Assembly (NCBI RefSeq): GCF_949628265.1
Contig: NC_088788.1
Location: 21,190,335 to 21,254,334, forward strand
Source: Cloeon dipterum
Taxonomy: Eukaryota > Arthropoda > Insecta > Ephemeroptera > Baetidae
Reading direction: 5' to 3'
DNA length: 64,000 nucleotides
The position numbers and the translations under genes are program-made. This document shows, piece by piece, positions 3,063 to 44,607 of this stretch. The notes below the pieces were generated by a model. The model was given only the letters and a program-made list of their open reading frames with translations, was not told the DNA's origin and did not search any database. Positions within the stretch are counted from its first letter, which is position 1. Each line of letters opens with the position of its first letter.

Positions 3063-6000
3063 ATGCAAAGTCATTTCTGGCGAAAGATACGCTGTGCGGG
3101 CTCATCTTCTGCAGTGCTGCTTGCGAATCGCACTAATTTATTGCACAGAGCAATAAAACTAGACCTACTCTCGAAAAATATTTCTTATCTCCCTCTGCAA
3201 TACTTGAGCTGGCGTAATTGTGATAGCAAAAATATTTTGCTATCGAAAAATCATTCACTGCTCCCTTTATCATCATTGCAAACTCATATTAATCACAGCT
3301 TTGTGTAAGTTAAAAGCAACCTCAAGCCATACAGCCACATCCTTTCTGAGTACATAATATATTTGTTTAAAAATTATTTCAAGTTTTTATTCCATATTTT
3401 CAGAAGACGGAAAGGTATATTAGCTATGGCGGATATTTCCCAGTTTGTGCTGCCAAACGACCAGCCTGTTGTGTCCCTCGACTGTGAAGAGGCCTTCAAT
3501 GCCTTGACAGACCAGGAAAAGAAATATGCCCACCACCTAAGCCAAGCCTCTTGGAATGGAGGACTTATTGTCTTTGTCCAGGTAATCTAGAGGTTTGTTC
3601 ACAAAATGCCTAATTAATGCTTAAAATGACATTTCTCAGACTTCTCCGGAGTCTCCACTGATTTTCTCCTTGCTGCATAGACTGTTTTTATCGCAGCCCA
3701 TCAAAGAGCTTCAAAAGGTTGCCACCGAGCAGTGCAAATTCACAGAAGATGAATTCAAGGTAATACAAGAGATTTGTGCATGGTGATTTGACATTTTTCT
3801 CTTCTAGGCTGTTCTTATCTACACTTGTGGAATTTTGACCAATGCTGGCAACTACAAAGGATTTGGTGACAGTAAAATTGTACCCAACCTAAGTGCCGAG
3901 CGGTTTGAAAGTCTGGTACTGGCTAGCGCTGCCTTCAAAAAGGAGCCTGAAAAAGTCAAGTATTTGTGGGAAAATGTGAAAAATGGCATTTACTCTCTTG
4001 ACACCAAACAAAAGAGCCTTGGTTTAGGCGATAAGGTAGTAATTAGCTGTAAATTCTCCCCTTATAATATTGAACAGCGACCTCTCAGGGTATTAGCACC
4101 TACTTCTCAAGCAACTGCACCATGGAAGACGCTGATGTGATTACAGAATACATGAAAAAGAAAAACATCGAGGGGTACAACAATCGACTTTTCAAAACTG
4201 TCCAGAATGGTGTCACAATCTATGAGGTGAGTAAGCATATATCTTGGTTGAGTAGGAGTAAATTTCCATTTTGAATACCAGATAAGAATGGCCTCAAGTC
4301 TCAGCGGGGACGCAGATGGTATCACCCATGGCGAAGAAGAGTTTCAAGGGTGCAAAATTAAGATCACCAGAGGTGATTATGGTGGTCTCATTGGAAAGGT
4401 CGCTGCACACTTGGAGCAAGCCAAGGTATATCAATCTTTTTGGTTTGGTGTAAAATCAAATTGGCCAAAAAATATCAAAAAGAGTGTATAAGATTTCTCT
4501 GCAACTGTTTCACTTGAGCCATCCTCTTTCAACAAATCATGTTTGATTTCATTTTTCCATTGGTAAACGTTCTCACATAGTCGCTCTTCTAGGGTATACA
4601 TTGAAAACACAATCAGAGAACTATAAAAACTGAATTGATCAAAAGTAAAATCAATTTTTATTAATAAAAAATCTTGATGGATGGTGTATTGAAAATTAAA
4701 ATCGCCATCTGCCTAGAACACCTTGACTGGTGTAGCTTTTTCAGTAACAACAATAACATCAAAAATTGATGGGAAACACGTGCATATTTATATTAACCAT
4801 CAGGCTTTTGAGAAGTAGTTAGCAAAGGAAAAAAATGTTTTTACTCATGAAATTACGGGGCAAATAATATCATTGGTTCAGAAATAATTATGTGAAGATG
4901 TCATCAACTTATCAACAAAAATTTTCTCTTTTATCTTCAGGCTGTTGCTGCAAATGAGAATGAGGTACAGATGATTGACAATTACATCAAGAGTTTCACC
5001 CAGGGGTCGTTGGATGCGCACAAAGATGGTTCCAGATACTGGATCAAGGACAAGGGTCCAGTCATTGAAACGTAAGGATATCCTCCTTTTTAGAAATTTC
5101 CAGATGATAACTCAATGACTCTACAGGTACATCGGTTTCATTGAAACGTACCGTGACCCTGCTGGGATGCGAGGCGAGTTTGAAGGATTTGTGGCTATGG
5201 TCAACAAGGAAATGTCGGCAAAGTTTACTGAGCTTGTTGACAAGGCTGAAAATTTCCTGACGCTCTTGCCCTGGCCGAAAGAATTCGAGAAGGACACTTT
5301 CTTACGTCCTGACTTCACCTCTTTGGACGTCTTGACCTTCTCAGGGAGTGGAATTCCAGCTGGAATCAATATTCCTAACTGTATGAAGTTTAAAATTTAG
5401 AAAATTATTTTGATAATTGTCTTGAATTTTTAGACGATGAGATCCGTCAAAGTGAGGGCTTCAAAAATGTGTCCCTGGGCAACGTCATTCCTGCCAACTA
5501 CCAGCAGACAGTCACCCCATTCTTGTCAGAGGAAGACCAAGCGCTTCTCGGCAAATATCGTGTGCCTTCTTTTGAAGTGATTTTCATCCTCTGCTTACCA
5601 ATCTATATTAATGACTTCTAAAAAGGTTCAAGTTGGTCTTCACGAGTTGCTTGGTCATGGCAGTGGAAAATTGTTCCGCAGAGAGGAGGGTGGAAAGTTT
5701 AATTTCCCTCCTGAAACCTTGGACCCACTTACAGGCCAAAAGGTAATTTTATTATTTTCATTCATTCAGCAAAGTGATAATTCCGCTTTGTTAAATAGAT
5801 CAGCACTTGGTTTGAAATTGGTGAGACGTACGATTCAAAATTCTCCACCATGGGATCAACTTATGAGGAGTGCAGAGCTGAGTGCGTTGGTCTGTACCTT
5901 AGTCTGGACAAAAATGTTCTCAGGTAAATGGAATATCAAATAAATTTGACTCATTGAGTTGTTATCTTAATTTAGAAGATCAACATTAAAAAAGAAGCAA

Positions 6001-6884
6001 CGGAATCAATCTGCAGCCCTTAAACTTAAAATGACACGCCCTTTTTAAGAAAAAAATCAAATCAAACCTCTTAAAGAATTAGTTGTAATAAAAATAATTA
6101 CTAACTAATTTGAACACTCGTTTATCCCCAGAATTTTCGGCCACGAGGGAGAGACTGCAAATGACGTGCTGTACGTCAACTGGATGAGTATGATTTGGAA
6201 TGGCGTAGGCAAAGCAATGGAAATGTACCAACCGGAAACAAAATCATGGCTGCAGGTACCAATCAAGGTTAAATAAGTGGACAGATGCGTTCAGTTTCTC
6301 CTGTAGGCTCACTCCCAAGCGAGGTTTGTGATCATGAAGGTGCTGGTTGAAGCCGGAGAAGGCTTGGTGACTATCAAGGAAACCGACAATGGCACTAACC
6401 TGCTTGTCACTGTTGACAAGGATAAAATCGAAACTGTCGGTAAAGCAGCGATTGGCACCTTCCTTCAAAAACTGCAGGTTAAATTTAAATGAGTGGCTCT
6501 GAGACCTCGCAGAGTTAACTGACGTGTTACAACAGATTTACAAATCTACATGCAACGTGAAGGCTGCCAAGGAAATGTATGACAAGTATTCTGAGGTTAG
6601 TGACTCTGGCGTCCATCCTTGGGCTAAGTGGAGGGCCATCGTGATGGCCCACAAGCAGCCAAGAAAGATGTTTGTGCAGGCTAACACTTTCCTTAGTGGT
6701 AAGTTTGGACATATTCCAATTTGATTTTCACCAATTTGACCATTGAGCAGGAGACAAGGTGGTGCTGAAGAAATACGATCCTTCTCCGGAGGGGTTGATC
6801 AGCTCTTGGATGGAGAGATTCCCTTCCACGGATGTTGATGATTTGTTGGAAGAGTTGTGGAAAAAAGACGCACACCATTTCTAA
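3063..6884 (+). CDS. DppIII: Dipeptidyl peptidase III (M49 zinc peptidase)
   Basis: Main product 715 aa from ATG 3426. Exons: 3404-3581 (coding from 3426), 3640-3759, 3808-4035, 4089-4226, 4282-4425, 4941-5071, 5127-5380, 5434-5576, 5626-5742, 5799-5923, 6132-6255, 6307-6477, 6536-6698, 6751-6884. Zinc-site motifs of family M49 are intact: HELLGH at 444-449 and EECRAE at 500-505. [20 protein letters not shown] and [19 protein letters not shown] are family hallmarks. Known: a mainly cytosolic metallopeptidase that removes dipeptides from the N terminus of oligopeptides. An upstream exon (3063-3304) splices in frame to 3404 and adds 88 residues, giving an 803 aa form; that leader is basic and nearly free of acidic residues at its start, like a mitochondrial presequence. 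AATAAA follows at 6951. Confidence 0.97.
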
Positions 6885-7649: not shown

Positions 7650-10600
7650 TTAAATTTTAACGATTTGAGCTCGGACATTCTCAGGGAAAGGTTTATCCTC
7701 AGCAGGTTTGGCGAGCTCCAATCTGGCAAAAGTGCCACCACCTACCCCTTTGGCGAGCCTTTCTGGGTTCACTACCAGAGAGCCATCAACATTCTGTTAC
7801 AAATGCAATGTCAGTTAAAATATTGAGTTTGATAATCTTAACACCACCTTAATGAAAAATCTCAAGTCTGAGGGCAGAACGAGCACGTGTGGTTTGACAG
7901 GCATCTGTGCATACTTCTCCCACGCCTCCAAAGCAATGCTGGTTTGAGCGGGATGCAGGGGGTAAAAGCAAGCCTGCTGCAGCAGGTGATTAGCAAGGCG
8001 GCCCAGTCTGTCGGAGCTTTGGCTAAAATCGAATGGTTATTGGCTTGTTTTCAAGAGGAGACGAGTCAAAGCGCACCTTGAAATCTCACAAGGTCCTATA
8101 TGCTTCAAAATATCCGTTGAAGTGACTCCAATGATCAACCCGTCGACGTCAAGCAAACATGGATCAGATACCAAAGTCACGTTGTCAGGCAAGGCCTTCT
8201 TGTCTGCAGCAGAGAGGCTGTATGGCGGTGAAGGGTAGATTGGCAGATGATGCGCATCCCGGCTTGAAGCAACTACGACGATCCTCGTGTGCTGACTAGA
8301 AATTTAAATAAGCATCTGTCGATTGAAATCATACTGACATGAATTACCCTGCTAAAGGTCCCAGGGCATCTATCAGGAGTCTCATAAAGAATTGCTCGTA
8401 AGATCCCTCCATCATGGAGTCTTGGACATGCTGCTGATGCGAGTCCACAAAAGGGCCGCACAAGATCACCAAATGGGGCTTATTTTCTATGATGTATTTG
8501 GTCAGTGCCTGCAGAGGTTCGTAAGTCAGGGCGTCTGAGAAAGTGTAAGGACCAGCAGCGACAACTATCTCCATAGGCCCTGCAAGAGTATGCAATATTG
8601 AGCTACAAAGCAAACCCAGTTAAAAACCGCATTACCAGTGGAAAAATCAAAGGAAAGCGGATTTTCTGATGACTTGAGGCCAACATCAGTGAAAACCTTA
8701 GAGGGGACCAGCTTGCCTCCTGCATGATGCGCCAGGAGAGCAACCACCTGACCAGTGAAGTGCGAGTAGTTTTCCACTTTCTGCAAATTCAGAGGCATTT
8801 CGGCGTCTTTATCTGAGGCGCTGGTGATGACCACAGAGTTTGCCGTCAGTTTCAAATCTTCAGCGCAACAGCTGATTCGACCAACAAACACAGCGTCGTC
8901 CTGTTACATATAACACTGAATGATCAAATGAAATTTCTTTAATCAATTAATTATTACGGCATGTTGTTCTTCCAGGGAAGAAAACTCGGGCAAGTCATTT
9001 TGCTTGCGCAGCTGTTCGCCCAAGAAGTCGATCCTGTCGCTGAGAATGGCTCTAGTCAGGTGGGCTGGTTCAAACATGTGCTTGTACTGGCTGGTGAGGA
9101 CGCCGCTGCCAGTTGCCAAGGACTCAACGGACACTCTCCGCACATTGCTTGCCTTCCAAGTGGCTTCATTGGAGCTTCCAAACTCAGAGACAATTTTGCC
9201 AGAATTTTCAGACGCGCTTTTCTTGCCAGAAGGGGTGAATCTGGTTTTCAAAAAAATGAACTCTTATGTCATCTGTTTTGAAATCAGTTATAAGGTATGA
9301 CACAGTCATGTATTATATTTAGTTAAGAAAGTGTAAAAAATCTTGCGACGCGTTGCTCAGTGGCCAAGACTGCTGCAGTACTTTCATCAAAATCTATTGA
9401 GAAAATTTGTGGGATAACCTCTATAAAAGCATTTTGCTGTTCACTCTCTAACAATTTAATGTAATTGCAACATCTAGAGCGACATTTTGTGAATCACGAA
9501 TTTCTTAAGAATACTTTCAAATATGTTTGTCTACCAACAGCAATCATCTTTTTTTAAATATAATTTTACTAGAACAGTTTCGTTTTAAATATTTTAACTG
9601 AACTAAGTCTTCATGTCTCTAGAATGAATCAGTCTTACGGGCTTAACAAATAACAAGATCCATCTTCAAAATTTAAATCTTGACTTTATTGCAGTCACTT
9701 CCTCATTGTTTTAACTTGTCACAAAAAATATGCACTTGTTCTCAAAATCCACTTAATCTGTTCTGCATATTGGGACTATCAATTTTAATCAGGTTTTACT
9801 TTATTAACGTGTTAATTTTGTAGATTTTAAACGACTAATTTGCCTGTTATCTTTCATTGCAATAGTGGTGGTGTAGCGTTGGCTTCCAGTAAATTATCTA
9901 TCTAAAACGACTGTTAGAAATCCTTAAGAATGACTAGAAAAGCTTACTTCGACATTCAAAACAACAAAATTTTAAAGCAATTATTGACTGTCAAGATCTC
10001 TCAAGACAAATATTAGGCGGCAAAGCAAACAATAAAAACTCCTTACATGGCAGGCGAATAGCTTGCTGGGGAAAAGTCGGCAAGGGTTGAATCATGTTCA
10101 GAGCTGATTCGGCTCACAGGTTTGGCCTGTTGAAACAGGAAAGTTTATTTTTAGCTAGATCCGATTAATGAAAAACACAAACGAGCCAAATAACTAAGGA
10201 ATTTATGGCTTTTTGTAGCTGCATGAAAAGAAATCTCACGATATAAGGTGAACATAAAAAATAAAACACACACATGTCAGAATGGGAACAAAACAGATTA
10301 GAATATTGTCAACAGCGAAAATGAGCAATTCAAGTACAACTCAAACAAATAGCATTCAAGAATTGATATTCTATAAATAAAAACATTCACATACGACCAA
10401 AGAACACAAGTCAAGAGCCACGGTCGTGTACTATTGATGAGTATGGATCTAGTCATGGGTTCAACAGTCAGCACGCACTAGACCCGTACCCATCCATAGG
10501 CTACAACCTGCCCGTGCGAATTTAGGTCGGTCAGGTCAAACAGAACAAAGGATTCGCTGGCTGCAGGGAGAGACGAACTGGCGAGTCTGGCTGCCTAATT

Positions 10601-13320
10601 GGTGCGGTGCTTTCTTCAAGGCCAGCCAATGATGAGTGTAGATCTAGTCACATATTAATGGTTCGTGTGCTCTAGACCACCACTCACCACTGGACAGCCC
10701 GGGGACACGTGGCAACAGCGCCTCCGGCTCGCTCGCCGGCCGCTCTGATGCAGCAGTGGCAGCGACGGCGGTGGCTGCCTTGATGCATGACATGGCATTG
10801 ACACTTCTCGCAGCCGCCGTGACCCTTAATCAAGCATCAGAGCGCGCGTCACACAATCCAACTCGGAATATTTCGCACGTTTTGCATTATTCATGTGAAT
10901 AACATGCATCTCATTCCGAGCAGCCGGCGCTTTTTTGAATCGATTTCTGAAATTATCGGCGGCGAGGAAGCTGCCTGCTTACCGGATAAAACGAAGTGAA
11001 AGTTCTCTCAGGTGATATTACCTCACTTGCGGCAAGGAGCGTGCTTTTCCCGGGCGAGCCTAACAAAGAATGAGCAGGGGGAAATCGCCGACCGGGTGAG
11101 CGTCAGGTATTTGGCGGCAATGCACGCGGCAGGTGGAAAGGTGGAATCACGCACCCCCCAAAGGGGAGAGGGTAGGGAGGACGCGTTCGGTGGACGCTTC
11201 TGACGAGAGGCTAGGGCCCCCCAACCACCCTTCCACAAATCACGACAAAGGAATTCGGCTATCGACAAAATGGACACTGAAAATTCCACTCATCAGGTCG
11301 CTAACTAATAAAATAGGGAGGGCGAATTACGGCCGAATGAGTCTTGGACAGCGGAAATTGCGCGATTCGGCGAAGCGAATGAGGAAAAATAAAAGAGAAA
11401 TTTGCCACGAAATTCTCACCGACGGCAGCAGGCGCGTGGAGTGAAACTATCTTGCACAGGCGGTGCGCTCACTTTCACTGGCCGCACGATTCGCGCTGGC
11501 TCGGCGGCGGCGATAAGAAAATCGCTCAGCAGGACAGAGAGGCAGCGATTTCGTGCGAAAATGCATCTTGGTGGAAGCGGCGGCCGTGATGGAAGATTTG
11601 GACGCCTGCGAGCGAGCCAACGCGCTAGCTTGTGGTGGCTGCGGCTGGCAAGCGTCATTTAGTGGCCTTGAGAAAAATCCCTTCTTCTCAGGCAGGCGGC
11701 AGCGCAGGTAAAGAGAAAGGAGAACCTGCGGCAGGTCGAACCGCCGAGGCCTCCCCTCCAACCCCGCCTGAGCTGTGCTGCCTCTGCTTCCATCTATCCA
11801 TCTCCCGCCCCCACAAGAGCAGGAGAGCGACAAAAAATCACATATTTTCCACGCAGGTATGTGTGCAAAGCGGCGAAAAGAGGCAAGCAGCCAGGCAGGC
11901 GAGCAAGCGAGCAGGTATCCCAACACAAGATGCATTAGGTTCCCACCAAAATGTGGCAACCCCGCCTGTTATATTCCAATTTTCTTTGTAGTGCTCCCCT
12001 CTTTTTCAATTTCAAGGAGTATTATTATTCCTGTTGCTGCGGTGCCTCTCTTCGCCAGCTTCTTTTGAGATTTCTTTTCGTTGCTACAAAAAGCCAGCCT
12101 CTACTATACTTCCGAGAGCATGCACACGAGAAAAAAAATAACAAGAGCGTGCAAAGAAAATTGCACAGAGCACTCACCCTCTGTGGTGTCACGTATCCAG
12201 ATGGGATGCTTGCGCTTCTGAGAAAAAAAGTTAAGGAAACACTTGTGGAAATTGAGGTTGCATTTAAAATTAGAGCCATAAAATAGTTTTAATAAAAAAA
12301 GAGCACAACACCAACAATAGCAAACAATTGTGATTCATTTGATAAAAACAAACATAATTGTGATTTCACAATTGAAGTTAACAGCGAATGAATGTAATTT
12401 TGAGCTTCAATGAAAGATTGAGACCCGCATATAATAAGGAAATAAGCATGAACTAAATACTTGCTGCAAAACTGAGTCAAAACAGCGGAAAATTATTGGT
12501 ACAAGACCTGTAGTCTCCAAAAAACTTAAAAAATTACCAAAGATAGTGATTTAGTGCTTTGAAAAGCAAAGTTCTGTAAAGATTAACGATTCTATGGAAT
12601 ACAGTATATATGTATTTAATGTGTACACTCCTCGCCCGCCACTTTTAGTTATCGGTACTAAGTTATTTTTATGGGGAAAAAACGAAATGAGTATGTGTGC
12701 GAGAAGTGTAGTGTATGAAGTGTACATTCGACGTGTTATCCAATCAAGAAAAGGATACAAATTTGATTTGGCTAGACTGCTAACCCTCGGCTTGGCTATG
12801 CTTTTCGCCTTATTTTTCTCCCTCTCCATCTCGGCTACCATGCGGGCTAAAATGTCTTCGTCCACCTTGTTGTGCCATCCCAAATGAGACGCGCTGAAAG
12901 CCACCCACTGCTCGGCCAATTCCTCCTCATCTAGCTCATACTGATCGCAAATGTCCAGGCCTGCAAGAATGTCGGCGTCGAGCCGTCGAGACGTACAATT
13001 ATCAAAGAAGCAATAATAAAGTTAAACCATATGCAATAGAATCTGTATATCATTGCAAACGAAGCTAATTTGATCGAATTTCACTCCGAAAAAGCTAACA
13101 GGGCCCGGAAAATGCACCCAAGCGGCCCCATACAGAGAGCAACAAGTTGTCGCAGAGCGAGACACTACTCACGCTCACAATGGGAACCTCGATTCAAATT
13201 AACAGTTGAAATGCGAATGAAAATGATTTAGCGCTACTCACACTTGGAAATAGTGCCGTCGGAGAGTTTAGAAACACCGACATTCTCGAATTCGGCGATT
13301 ATAGCGTCTTTCTTCACCAT
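7650..13320 (-). CDS. POLA2: DNA polymerase alpha subunit B
   Basis: Ten exons: 13320-13242, 12960-12759, 12217-12178, 10126-10047, 9240-8958, 8900-8636, 8579-8348, 8295-8077, 8022-7848, 7793-7650; they join in frame to 572 aa. Seen: an N-terminal domain (CLDICDQYELDEEELAEQWV), a linker with SPASYSPAIFTPSG, then the OB-fold and inactive calcineurin-like phosphoesterase core with VVAAGPYTFSD and LVILCGPFVDS, and a C-terminal block with GGTFARLEL. Known: POLA2 is the non-catalytic B subunit of the polymerase alpha-primase complex, tethering polymerase and primase at replication origins. Least certain are the donor after 12759 (GTATCC, weak) and the 40 bp third exon; both were chosen because they keep frame and give SASIPSGYVTPQR. 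The third intron carries two miRNA hairpins. Confidence 0.93.
10419..10518 (-). ncRNA. mir-279: microRNA hairpin, miR-279 family (copy A)
   Basis: Read on the minus strand this folds into a hairpin whose 3' arm (10455 down to 10434) begins UGACUAGAUCCAUACUCAUC, matching the miR-279 family (seed GACUAGA at positions 2-8). The 5' arm (about 10493-10471) reads GGGUACGGGUCUAGUGCG and pairs with it, with a short loop near 10456-10468. The stem continues outward (CACGG at its base against CCGUG). It lies in intron 3 of POLA2 in the same orientation, so it could be processed from the POLA2 pre-mRNA or its own transcript. Known: miR-279 acts in Drosophila on nerfin-1 and JAK/STAT components. The family call is from recognition of the mature sequence. 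Confidence 0.88.
10615..10708 (-). ncRNA. mir-279: microRNA hairpin, miR-279 family (copy B)
   Basis: A second minus-strand hairpin about 195 bp upstream in transcript sense. Its 3' arm (10650 down to 10629) starts UGACUAGAUCUACACUCAUC, with the same seed GACUAGA, differing from copy A at positions 11, 13 and 22. The 5' arm (about 10688-10668) reads GAGUGGUGGUCUAGAGCACA and pairs almost completely, with a loop around 10652-10666. The lower stem extends through CCA/TGG and GGC/GCC pairs. Paralogous tandem copies with the mature strand on the 3' arm are typical of the miR-279/996/286 family. It shares the POLA2 intron with copy A and they are likely co-transcribed. Confidence 0.87.
10741..10844. 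repeat. Inverted repeat / candidate structured RNA
   Basis: An 11 bp perfect inverted repeat (CGCTCTGATGC at 10741-10751 and GCATCAGAGCG at 10834-10844) encloses a second pair, ACGGCGG at 10765-10771 with CCGCCGT at 10814-10820. The two stems are separated by a symmetric internal loop of about 13 bases per side. It lies 33 bp from miR-279 copy B. It is not a canonical miRNA precursor; function unknown. Confidence 0.4.
10845..12000. other. GC-rich part of POLA2 intron 3
   Basis: This 1.1 kb stretch is visibly richer in G, C and CpG than the rest of the intron and is open in several frames on both strands, none with a recognisable domain. In transcript sense it lies just upstream of the two miR-279 hairpins, so an independent pri-miRNA promoter is a reasonable guess, but no core promoter element identifies it. 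Confidence 0.4.
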
Positions 13321-14051
13321 CTTGGCTGCCAAATGAGAAAAAGCGCGAAAACAGTCCGGTGGAAAAAGGTGACACGTGACCTTGACGTATGTCGGAATAG
13401 CTCGGTTTCCGAAGTTGTCTATCAAAATAACGCGCGTGCAGCCCATGCAACGTGCCGAAGAAACCCATAACAATAAAAATGGCTAAATTACCAGAAAATC
13501 TGCCTGCAGTTGGGTCGGCGAACTACATTTTAGCTAAATTCGGCTGAAATTCGTCGGCTGTCTGCAGCAGTACTGTAAATGGCGTCTGCGCGACCAGCAC
13601 CCGAAACTAATGTTTTCAGCCGTTATCAAGTTTCCGCTTAGACCACAGTGTCGCTAGCAGCTAACTAGGCTCGATGGTGGATGCAAGCTTCGCGAGAAAA
13701 ATACCTCTACCCAACACAAGTGGCGCTGCGAATATCCTCAGTCGCAGGTCGCAGTACCGCTACTTTTTGAAATTTCGAGAATCGTATGATCACACTGATC
13801 ACATCCCAGCATCTCTAAGGACCAAGGATCAACAAGAAGTATTTATTAACTCTATCCTGAGTACCAAGCAGCAATAAGAAGAAACTAGTCCAATCAAAGT
13901 ACGAGCCTACCATAATAACGAAAAATATTCGTGCTTTGTTTGGAAAGTGGAAAGCAGAAAGGGATAAACAGCACGTTGACCAGCTAACAAAACTCTCGAA
14001 ACAATTAATAAACTTCTGAGTATTGTCCATTTATTCTCAAGTAGCTGGGTC

Positions 14052-14604
14052 ATGGCTGAAATTCTCTATGTATTCGGTGAGGAAAGGAGGGCTCAGATGT
14101 TGTTTGGTTGTCAAGTCAGCAGAGACACGGATCACACGGACAACAAAGACACCAAAACCGCGATGAGGATGCCTGAGGATTGCTTCGGCTGCAGAATGGT
14201 ATCTGGAGGTGGACTCATTGGCGCAGGACTCTATATTGCATTCCAAAGCAAAAGAGCAAATAACCTCTCAGTTAAAGTTGCAATGAATACTATTGCATTA
14301 GGTAAGCATGAAATCTGTGATGAGTGATTATCAAATAATTGTTCAGCCAGGGTGAGATCCTGATAAATCAAATTCATCCGAGTGAATCAATCACACCAAG
14401 ATAGAAGTTTGGAAGGCAGGCTTGATTGTCTTTTAATGAGACAAGATTTTGTTTCACAACAGATAATCAAATTAAAATTTTGAATTTTCAGGTGCTGCAG
14501 GTCTTGGCTGTGCAAGGATCTTGAACCTTCCTCCATTTAACAACATTCACAAGGCAAACAAGGAAACCCCCACTTCTCTTCAAAGCACAACAGAAACAAA
14601 TTAG
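14052..14604 (+). CDS. DMAC1-like (DUF4536) mitochondrial membrane protein
   Basis: Two exons (14052-14301 and 14492-14604) join in frame to 120 aa, close to the 112 aa of human DMAC1/TMEM261. The core DCFGCRMVSGGGLIGAGLYI has the CxxC followed by a Gly-rich membrane helix seen in that family, and a second hydrophobic stretch spans the exon junction (ALGAAGLGCARIL). Known: DMAC1 assists assembly of the distal membrane arm of respiratory complex I. The start is uncertain; in-frame ATGs also occur at 14097 and 14163. AATAAA at 14711. The gene is divergent from POLA2 and converges on RTRAF. The family call rests on one short conserved block, so it could be another small membrane protein. Confidence 0.62.
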
Positions 14605-14710
14605 CGAACATTAGCAGAGTACTGTTCCCACTACATAAGACTGGGTATCAATGCGATTTATGCTTGTTAAAGCAGTTTCTGCTACAATCACGCTAGTTGC
14701 GGCTTGGTAC

Positions 14711-14716
14711 AATAAA
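14711..14716 (+). promoter_or_regulatory. Polyadenylation signal of the DMAC1-like gene
   Basis: AATAAA about 107 bp after the stop codon, followed by a T-rich stretch. Confidence 0.55.
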
Positions 14717-14910
14717 CGCTTTCAATAATCTAGCCATCATCCTTTGCTTTCAATTATCCCAGAAGGAAAACAAATTATTTAACCACAGCAATTCGAAGTA
14801 TTTGTATTACCATCATAAGCGACCAAGTTATGTGAAAAATGAAAAATTACCGTAGCAAATTAATTTTAAAGGTATGTATTTTTACAAATATAAAAAATCA
14901 AGAGGAAATC

Positions 14911-14916
14911 TTTATT
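14911..14916 (-). promoter_or_regulatory. Polyadenylation signal of RTRAF
   Basis: Minus-strand AATAAA 35 bp beyond the RTRAF stop. Together with the signal at 14711 it defines a compact tail-to-tail spacer of about 200 bp. Confidence 0.55.
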
Positions 14917-14950
14917 TAAGTAACGAATGTTTTATGGGCTTAGGCAATTT

Positions 14951-16002
14951 TTAGTAGCCAACTTTACCCATGGCAATGTTAGTCTTTGGATCTGCTGTAA
15001 ATCCTTGAAGGGCAACTATTGTTTCATTGATGCTGGTCTGAAGGTGTCGAAGGTCTTTTAGATATAGCAACCTCATTATTTGGACAGCCTGCCCGATTGT
15101 TGGGTCACCAATCTCCTCCAACCCAATGTCTGCGTGATTTAAAGGACATTCAACGCCCTGCAATGAACATACAAGTTAAATATAAAATCAATGGTCAAGA
15201 GCTCAAAATTAGGATTACACCGGGAAAGCAAAAATATACCTTGATAATGACGGTTTCTGGATTTGAGATTGCGTCTGGGTTTAGCCTAGAAATAACTAAC
15301 TTGCTGATTGCACTCAGAGTCAAAAGATGGTCGGGATGAGAAGCGACATTCAGCATTTTCGCCAATTTAAAGACTCCTCCTTTAAAGTCTTCAGAATTGA
15401 CTAAAATTATGGAAATATTTTATTATATTATCAATAAACTTAAATTCTTTAAAAATATATTTCTTTACTTACTATCAATTGACTCTAGTGGATTGGATTG
15501 ACTAGTGGGAGTCTTCTTCACATCCTTGTATTTCTCAACTAAACAAATTATTGCTTTCAGATTCCATTTAGTTTCGTGATTGAAATAAAAAACCTTCATC
15601 TGCGTATTCAAGGCGGATAGCATAGGAGAGCAGCCAATCCACCTCTTCCTTTCGTTTGCCTGAGCTAATTGGGCATCCTAGGTTATTCTTGTACTGCTGA
15701 TAGCCCTTTTCCCACTCTGGCGAATGAGTAACCCTCAACGGATCACGATCCTCAATTCTGAAGTGCCTTATTTTTTGTTCTTCCAACCAAAGCACCAGTG
15801 TCCGGAACTGCTTCTCGTCTTCATGAACAAGAAAAAGAATTCAAAATTATGAACTGGAATCGAAATAAGGAAAAGTAGGGTTACAAAAGCGATGAAGAAA
15901 ATACATATGGACAATCATCCACCTTCTGGATATATTTTTACCTTCACAGTCAAAGGGTTCCTCAGATTGATAATCCAATGCAGCAAGTTTCCTTTTGAAC
16001 AT
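14951..16002 (-). CDS. RTRAF: RTRAF / C14orf166 (hCLE) RNA-binding factor
   Basis: Five exons (16002-15942, 15818-15594, 15538-15473, 15400-15240, 15157-14951) join in frame to 239 aa; the human protein has 244. Start MFKRKLAALDY, then LWLEEQKIRHFRIEDRDPLR and VDWLLSYAIRLEY in the N-terminal calponin-like fold, a short variable linker, and a helical C-terminal part with RLLYLKDLRHLQTSINETIV and ADPKTNIAMGKVG. All are recognisable family blocks. Known: RTRAF belongs to the tRNA ligase complex (RTCB, DDX1, FAM98, ASHWIN) and binds RNA polymerase II; it moves between nucleus and cytoplasm. All splice sites are canonical. Confidence 0.94.
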
Positions 16003-19661: not shown

Positions 19662-22600
19662 ATGCCGATACAGGCGCCGCAGTGGACTGAATTCCTCACT
19701 TGCCCCGTGTGCTGCAATGAGTTTGACCCAGCAGCCAGGGGCCCCATCAGCCTGGGGTGTGGGCACACCGTGTGCAGGTCTTGCCTGTTCACCTTGCACA
19801 GAAAACAGTGCCCCTTCGATCAGGTCAGTCCGTCCAGTTCAGCTGTCTAGCAAATGAACCTAAATTCGTTCATGTTGGTTCCTGCCGTTGAACATGGCAA
19901 ATTCTCAAATTATGTTCTTTTGATTTTTCAGTACAACATAAGCTCTGAATTGGAGAATCTGCCCATCAACCATGCGATTCTCCAGTTACTTGGCACACCC
20001 TTGCCAGACAACGATGCCAATGGAAACGTTAAACACTTGACGCCAGAAGACCTTGGCTGTTACAGAAGAGCGAAAAAATGCATCGAGGATATGGCTCTCT
20101 ATTTAAAGCCATTTCCAGGTATTAAATTATTGTTCACTCTTAAATATACACTAATGTTGGTTCCATTTTATATTTCATTAGTGCTAAAATGTCAAAAATA
20201 TTTTGTTTCATTTTGTTTTGTTTGAAGAGCTATTGGTGATTAATTAATTAGTTAAGTTTTCCTGGGTGTGACTCACTTGTTGCTTTTTACATCACTCAAC
20301 GCAATGTTGCTGGAAATTGGATTGTCATACTGATTCATATTTTTTGTTCACAGGAGGCACAACAAATGCATTGTCCAGACCCATGCAAAAGAAGTTGGTT
20401 ACTTTAATCAACTGCCAATTATTCGAGGAGGAAGGCCGGTCGAGAGCAATGCGAGCTGCCCGATCGCTGGGAGAAAGATCAGTTACTGAATTGATACTGC
20501 ATCACCAGAACCCGCAACAACTGTCAGCAAATTTGTGGGCTGCTGTGAGAGCTAGAGGCTGTCAATTTCTTGGACCAGGTAAAAAATTAAGGAATTCCCA
20601 ATGTCCATGGAATATTGTGATAGATACCATTTTTAAGTGAGTTACATCATCGATTGAAGTTGTGTTATGTGTTAAGCTTTAAGTCATTCAATCTAAATCT
20701 GTTATTTTGGCAGTATTCATGAACTTAAAAATTTTACCACCAACCAGCCCGTTTGCTCGCATTGTTAAGGCATTCTCAGGAATGTCAAAGCAATGGGAGA
20801 TATTTGAGCAGCTCTGGGATCTAATGCTGGCCACCCAATGTCATAGGTGGCAATAGGTGGTTCATTTAGGGACTTCAAATGTTCAAATAGCTCTAAGGGC
20901 TGGGAGGTGCATCAATGCTGACTCGCCACTTGCTGGTTTGCGCACCTTTCCAGCGTCTTTATGGACAAATGTCTGGCGTTTCAATTAAAGACCTCGGTGC
21001 AGAGAGGCGAAAAGATGGCCATAATAGGCCCAAGCTCCTTTGCGGCCACTTGGGCCACTCTGGCACCATGTTATCCGCTCGGCGGTGTTATTGGGGCCTG
21101 GTACCCAGTGAGCTCATAGCCCACGGGGAGTGCTGTGCAGAGGGTCTTAAATAAAATAAATCGTATATTTATATTTGTTGAATCAGGGTATACCATTTTG
21201 ACATTTAATTGCATTTTACCCATGTATATTCTCGTTTTTCTGCAAATTTTGTAATGTTCTAACAACAACTTCTATGACTTGTTCAGCCATGCAAGAAGAA
21301 GTCCTACGGTTAGTTTTGCTCGCACTGGAAGATGGCTCTGCTCTTTCCAGAAAAGTTCTGGTCATGTTTGTGGTTCAGCGGCTTGAACCTCACTTCCCGC
21401 AAGCATCTAAAACAAGCATAGGGCATGTGGTGCAACTGCTCTATCGCGCTTCGTGTTTCAAAGTACGCAAATCACGAATCACTTGGCTGGCCATGTATTA
21501 ATCTCTTACATCGTCAGGTTTCCAAGCGTGAGGGTGACTCGTCGCTGATGCAATTAAAAGAAGAGTTCCGCAATTATGACGCGTTACGTCGAGAGCACGA
21601 TGCCCAAATCGTGCAAATCGCCACTGAGGCAGGTCTGAGAATAGCGCCTGACCAGTGGTCTTCGCTTTTGTATGGTGATGCTGCCCACAAGTCGCACATG
21701 CAAAGCATCATGGACAAGCTGCAGACGCCTCAGTCGTTCATCCAGTCAGTTCAGGAACTGATGATCGCGCTCCAACGAACCGGCGATCCGGGAGGTCTGC
21801 TCGGAGGACTGAGGGTCAGTTTAGAGCTCTTGGCAGCTATTGACCCATGCTGCAATCCAACTGGTAATTGAAATCTAACAAAATCATAAAATAATTCCGA
21901 TTTTGAAAGCTTTCTCACTGTCTAGATAATGCTTAGAAAGCAATCAAAATTTAATTTGTCCATTTGGAATGCTGTAAAGATAAGTAGTACTGAAAGTGAG
22001 TGTTTGACACTGTCTCACAAGTTATAATATTTCTAAAATTTCCTCCTTCAAATGTTAAATTGTAATTAAAATATTTTAAAACCCACTTAGTCAATCTGCA
22101 GTTATATGCAGTTTTAGTAATTACCTAATTCATTATAATTTTATCCTGTCTAAAACAATATTTAATTTTTGTTACAGAAACATCTGGAGCCCCGACATGG
22201 CCTGAATTGGCAGCTGCGTTGGAAGCTGCACGCACAGTCGGGGCTGGATTGGTTCGCTTCCTAGCGCAGCACGGGGGCGTCGCCCGAAAATCAAGTGATG
22301 GGGCTATGAATGTCGGTGCCAGGTACAAGGTCAGCATGTGCCGAGACCTGGTGACCCGTGGTGTGTGCCCACGCACCATAAATTGCACTTTCGCTCATTC
22401 TGAGGAAGAGCTTGAGAGGTATCGGGCAAAGAATCGAAAGTCTTCTCCTAGGGCTGCCGGACATAAAATGGATGGGATGAAGGAGAAGGGACTGGTTCAT
22501 GACAGGCTGTACCATTCGCCAGATAGCCACATGTATCCTGCACATTCTGCCAGAGAAGGTAAGTCACAGCTTACACAATTCAATTCTTAAACACAAAAAC

Positions 22601-28152: not shown

Positions 28153-44607
<16,455 letters not shown>

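Follow-up and report, generated by a model that had tools for sequence, protein, structure and literature searches.

Two microRNA hairpins of the miR-279 family are located in the second intron of the gene predicted to encode DNA polymerase alpha subunit B (POLA2) in the mayfly Cloeon dipterum. They lie in a window of 64,000 nucleotides from contig NC_088788.1, which is the whole stretch of DNA analysed here, and positions without a contig label refer to it. In the reading that we consider quite probable, they are genuine miR-279 genes at an inherited address in POLA2 intron 2 and would be made as one transcript, which would start, somewhat less surely, at a promoter of its own. Judged as sequence, both minus-strand hairpins are confirmed as members of this family lying in the POLA2 direction. 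They are biologically ordinary, that is, well-formed genes of a known insect family. The address in a POLA2 intron is already in print for the honey bee, and what is new here are the members of the known family.

The hairpins and their predicted mature strands

The downstream precursor hairpin (of the UCCAUACUC type) spans positions 10422-10508 of the minus strand, and the upstream hairpin (of the UCUACACUC type) spans positions 10617-10702 of the same strand. Both give full-length matches to the mir-279 family of Rfam (RF00754). Scored over the full precursor with the Rfam covariance model, the downstream hairpin reaches 59.9 bits against the mir-279 cut-off of 56, and it is the sole match above any family's gathering score in a scan of the whole 64-kb window. 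The upstream hairpin reaches 55.0 bits (E 1.6e-9, model positions 1-87), 1 bit below the gathering score; it is missing from the scan at the gathering threshold and was recovered with an E-value threshold on positions 8000-16000. The scores for the sense and antisense strands are 59.9 versus 32.4 bits for the downstream hairpin and 55.0 versus 26.3 bits for the upstream hairpin.

The folding energies are -36.5 kcal/mol (z -4.4) for the downstream and -40.5 kcal/mol (z -5.1) for the upstream hairpin, with loops of 16 and 15 nt, respectively. For each of them, none of 1000 dinucleotide shuffles folds as well. The first-pass annotation of this DNA had placed two minus-strand miR-279-family hairpins here, and both stand. 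It had also suggested folding the region 10400-10720, which gives -112.6 kcal/mol (z -2.71, with 0 of 100 shuffles as good). The motif GACUAGA occurs six times in the window. Local folding is strongest around the two occurrences in the hairpin pair (-33.9 and -40.5 kcal/mol); around the other four it gives -11.5 to -23.2 kcal/mol.

The predicted mature 3p miRNA of the downstream hairpin, UGACUAGAUCCAUACUCAUCAA, corresponds to positions 10434-10455 (minus strand), and that of the upstream hairpin, UGACUAGAUCUACACUCAUCAU, to positions 10629-10650 (minus strand). In both, the seed GACUAGA by which the mir-279 family is recognized lies on the 3' arm, at mature positions 2-8. A stable miRNA hairpin has at least 16 paired mature bases; here 20 of 22 bases are paired in the downstream and 19 of 22 in the upstream mature strand. 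The string UGACUAGA starts at 10455 and at 10650, with a spacing of 195 nt, and the seed positions agree with the mature 5' ends proposed earlier for these two positions, which are predicted ends. The two mature strands are mismatched at positions 11, 13 and 22, as was also noted before, and the pair are diverged copies, the hairpins being 50% identical to each other. The 5p star strands are predicted from the fold at 10472-10494 (downstream) and 10666-10688 (upstream), both on the minus strand; each is 23 nt long, with the 2-nt overhangs assumed by construction. A genome search with TGACTAGATC gave 101 places versus 89 for the control and is uninformative.

These strands can be compared with relatives in print, as given in excerpts of the papers cited. 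The prefix tcf is taken here to denote Triops cancriformis. The miRNA tcf-miR-279b agrees with the downstream mature strand over 20 nt, and the 3' ends differ (PMC10251896). The same relation holds over 19 nt between the upstream mature strand and tta-miR-279d of Thrips tabaci (PMC6053560). One string printed for both Thrips palmi and the nematode Bursaphelenchus equals the downstream mature strand over 18 nt and then diverges (PMC5042526, PMC2953492). In the open-licence literature, 24 papers print at least one of six mature strings compared, among them three moth papers with the 18-mer of the upstream mature strand.

The host gene and its second intron

The model of the host gene consists of eight minus-strand exons, running from 13320 to 7650 with GT/AG borders, and gives one open protein of 532 amino acids. 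The exon borders were read from sequence alone, and an extra small exon in intron 2 is possible and is unneeded for the reading frame. Exons 1 (13320-13242) and 2 (12960-12759), which together span 12759-13320 on the minus strand, hold the Pol_alpha_B_N domain (Pfam 3.5e-12). Exons 3 to 8, including the stop codon (7650-9240, minus strand), hold the OB and DNA_pol_E_B domains (Pfam 1.6e-15 and 1.1e-39). All three Pfam families, Pol_alpha_B_N, DPOA2_OB and DNA_pol_E_B, are found above the cut-off. The protein also matches solved POLA2 chains, the best being PDB 4y97_A (E 2.3e-85). From these matches the host gene is assigned as POLA2, DNA polymerase alpha subunit B. The model bears out the earlier claim that the hairpins lie in a POLA2 intron and on the strand of the host.

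Intron 2 (9241-12758, minus strand) is 3,518 nt long, has GT/AG borders with a matching reading frame and contains both hairpins. The lengths of the seven introns are, in order, 281, 3518, 57, 56, 52, 54 and 54 nt, so that intron 2 exceeds five of the others (52-57 nt) more than 60-fold in length. This suggests extra regulatory content; an intron of this size would leave space for a promoter and enhancers. The part of the intron that lies upstream of the hairpins and includes them (10400-12150) has a G+C content of 53%, compared with 33% in 9241-10350 and 34% in 12151-12758. We guess that the promoter of the primary miRNA transcript is located in this G+C-rich part. From 10300 to 12800, the minus strand has a single match to TATAWA, at 12610, about 1.9 kb upstream. 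This match falls outside the G+C-rich part, and the promoter is therefore not pinned down. Seven ORFs, a subset of those in the intron, were tested for a protein gene nested in the G+C-rich part, and none had a Pfam match at 0.01. No tandem repeats were found in intron 2 at a score of 50.

The surroundings of POLA2 were read by eye from open frames. An RTRAF-like gene lies upstream on the same strand (14951-15840, minus), and a DPP3-like gene is convergent with POLA2 (3309-6724, plus). Farther along the plus strand of the window, the open frame at 21422-22590 looks like a roquin-type CCCH zinc-finger protein and that at 42557-43096 like a mitochondrial carrier, also by eye.

The family in the genome and in other insects

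The mir-279 model was also searched against the 190-Mb assembly of 10 contigs. With the best candidates scored, 13 matches were obtained; two of these are opposite strands of a single hairpin, leaving at least 12 hairpins. Besides the POLA2 pair, eight hairpins lie at C2:27064735-27070191, and single ones at C2:2042225 and C5:2057641. Ten of the 12 retain an intact GACUAGA seed, and the two altered seeds belong to the C2 cluster. That cluster, in which eight mir-279-like hairpins occupy 5.5 kb of one strand and the changed seeds read UGACAAGA and UCACUAGA, is a local expansion of the family. At C2:2.04 Mb, a hairpin is accompanied 900 bp upstream by a decayed-looking copy with inserted bases (L010:2385, L010:3284), and the two together look like a piece displaced from the C2 cluster. 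No host could be assigned to the other mir-279 loci from the open frames in their surroundings. As a separate observation on this genome, 21 of its 31 matches to DUF1676 (Osiris-type) are clustered at C5:12.28-12.69 Mb; Osiris genes mark insects. The 23 exon matches to CSP in the genome likewise suggest an insect, and its 3 globin matches contrast with the tandem array of two-domain globins in Daphnia. For a 180-Mb assembly of Cloeon dipterum, 16 CSP genes and 191 OBP genes are reported (PMC7250882, excerpt); the single weak OBP match obtained here fits this number poorly, unless the genes are divided among many exons.

For 12 of 26 consensus base pairs, one or more of the 12 hairpins has changes on both sides with pairing kept; this count takes in the close C2 paralogues, and its events are not independent. 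In a tree of the 12 hairpins the POLA2 pair groups together, with weak support (0.58 in FastTree and 52 in IQ-TREE), and the two may be each other's closest paralogues.

The first-pass annotation had asked whether the relation of miR-279 to its host is conserved. The honey bee match answers this question: the relation is conserved, at least to the honey bee, according to a printed report found among the open-licence literature. PMC2394756 locates bee mir-279 in the third intron of its host gene, which the paper names only as "DNA polymerase-alpha primase". An excerpt of a second paper groups bee DNA polymerase alpha subunit B (POLA2), mir-996 and mir-279a with Err around one Mblk-1 binding peak (PMC9734179); the passage does not describe the miRNAs as intronic. 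Taken together, the two sources, the second as excerpted, point to POLA2 as the bee host. Because the bee has a like address, the location is most simply explained by inheritance from a common ancestor, and the POLA2-intron address would be an old shared arrangement.

The two arrangements differ in several details. The intron is numbered 3 in the bee and 2 in the mayfly. One bee copy is named mir-996; neither mayfly mature strand carries the presumed miR-996 string outside the seed. Err, which adjoins the locus in the bee, is without a counterpart here: the genome has 40 matches to zf-C4 (nuclear receptor), none of them near C3:21.2 Mb. With no nuclear receptor near the locus, the shared feature is the miRNA-host pair and not the wider neighbourhood.

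The Drosophila mir-279/mir-996 unit (CR31044), as described in an excerpt of PMC4456407, likewise consists of two tandem hairpins with a common seed. However, the fly hairpins are about 1.5 kb apart, compared with 195 nt here. The fly unit has its own transcript; the start site of this transcript adjoins a TATA box and precedes mir-279 by about 1 kb. The same excerpt mentions no POLA2 host for it, while the hairpins described here are POLA2-intronic.

Expression and origin of the pair

In the proposed mechanism, both hairpins would be made as one primary transcript, which would be cut by Drosha and Dicer into the 3p guides, and these would repress miR-279 targets through GACUAGA. The primary transcript probably starts at its own promoter in intron 2, within the G+C-rich stretch of this oversized intron. 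A start of its own is favoured because the fly unit has its own promoter and because intron 2 so greatly exceeds five of its fellow introns in length. Expression of the pair would then not be bound to the cell-cycle programme of POLA2. The first-pass annotation had suggested, with a hedge, a coupling to an S-phase transcript. This suggestion finds no support here, and the Drosophila unit has its own TATA promoter (PMC4456407, excerpt).

The coupling would be expected if these were classic intronic miRNAs, with the hairpins cut from the POLA2 pre-mRNA and their levels following those of POLA2, so that a replication gene drives a neuronal regulator. The shared strand and the position inside the intron agree with this, and intronic miRNAs are often co-transcribed with their hosts (PMC2394756). 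We regard it as rather unlikely, in view of the separate promoter of fly mir-279/996 (PMC4456407, excerpt) and of the length of intron 2, which suggests extra regulatory content. In addition, no miR-279 seed site (TCTAGTC or CTAGTCA) occurs in the POLA2 exons or in the sequence down to 7300, and hence no miRNA feedback on POLA2 is evident. Release of the hairpins by splicing instead of Drosha, as mirtrons, has nothing in its favour beyond the intronic location. The ends of a mirtron coincide with splice sites, whereas here 1,181 nt separate the pair from the acceptor end of intron 2 and 2,056 nt from its donor end. At these distances the hairpins are not mirtrons, unless unannotated short introns exist, and the probability of this origin is practically negligible. 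It is also very improbable that the pair represent copies of the larger mir-279 cluster elsewhere in the genome that have decayed or are not expressed. The genome does contain at least ten other hairpins of mir-279 type, and the seed is altered in two of these. However, the POLA2 pair keeps the seed, forms strong hairpins and has mature strings close to printed miR-279s. Its members are only 41-61% identical to the C2 copies, and the surrounding 1.8 kb (10400-12200) is single-copy, matching only itself in a genome search.

A different question is whether miR-996 has its ortholog or forerunner in the downstream hairpin, so that the pair would represent the ancestral mir-279/mir-996 unit. The downstream copy contains CAUACUC, which is similar to CAUGCUC, the motif that mature miR-996 presumably carries. 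The resemblance amounts to two or three bases, however, and the full presumed string is carried by neither mature strand. Its best occurrence in the genome, among the matches listed, has 2 mismatches. With up to 3 mismatches it is found in 218 places versus 86 for the reversed control, an excess that includes repeated strings, and it was not found in the open-licence literature. The grouping of bee mir-996 and mir-279a with POLA2 (PMC9734179, excerpt) and the tandem order in the fly, with mir-996 downstream (PMC4456407, excerpt), speak for the relationship. We consider it possible, at somewhat less than an even chance.

An equally tentative proposal combines these points. In insects, a two-gene mir-279 unit with a promoter of its own may originally have resided in the POLA2 intron, and the unit may have kept this one intron large while the rest of the gene stayed compact. 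The downstream member would have become miR-996 in holometabolous insects, and flies would later have lost the host and kept the unit.

If the host relation shared with the honey bee is also present in other insect orders, the POLA2 address would serve as a fixed landmark for sorting miR-279/996 paralogues by position. It would also provide an example of an intronic miRNA that some lineages have retained within its host and that has been separated from it in the fly.
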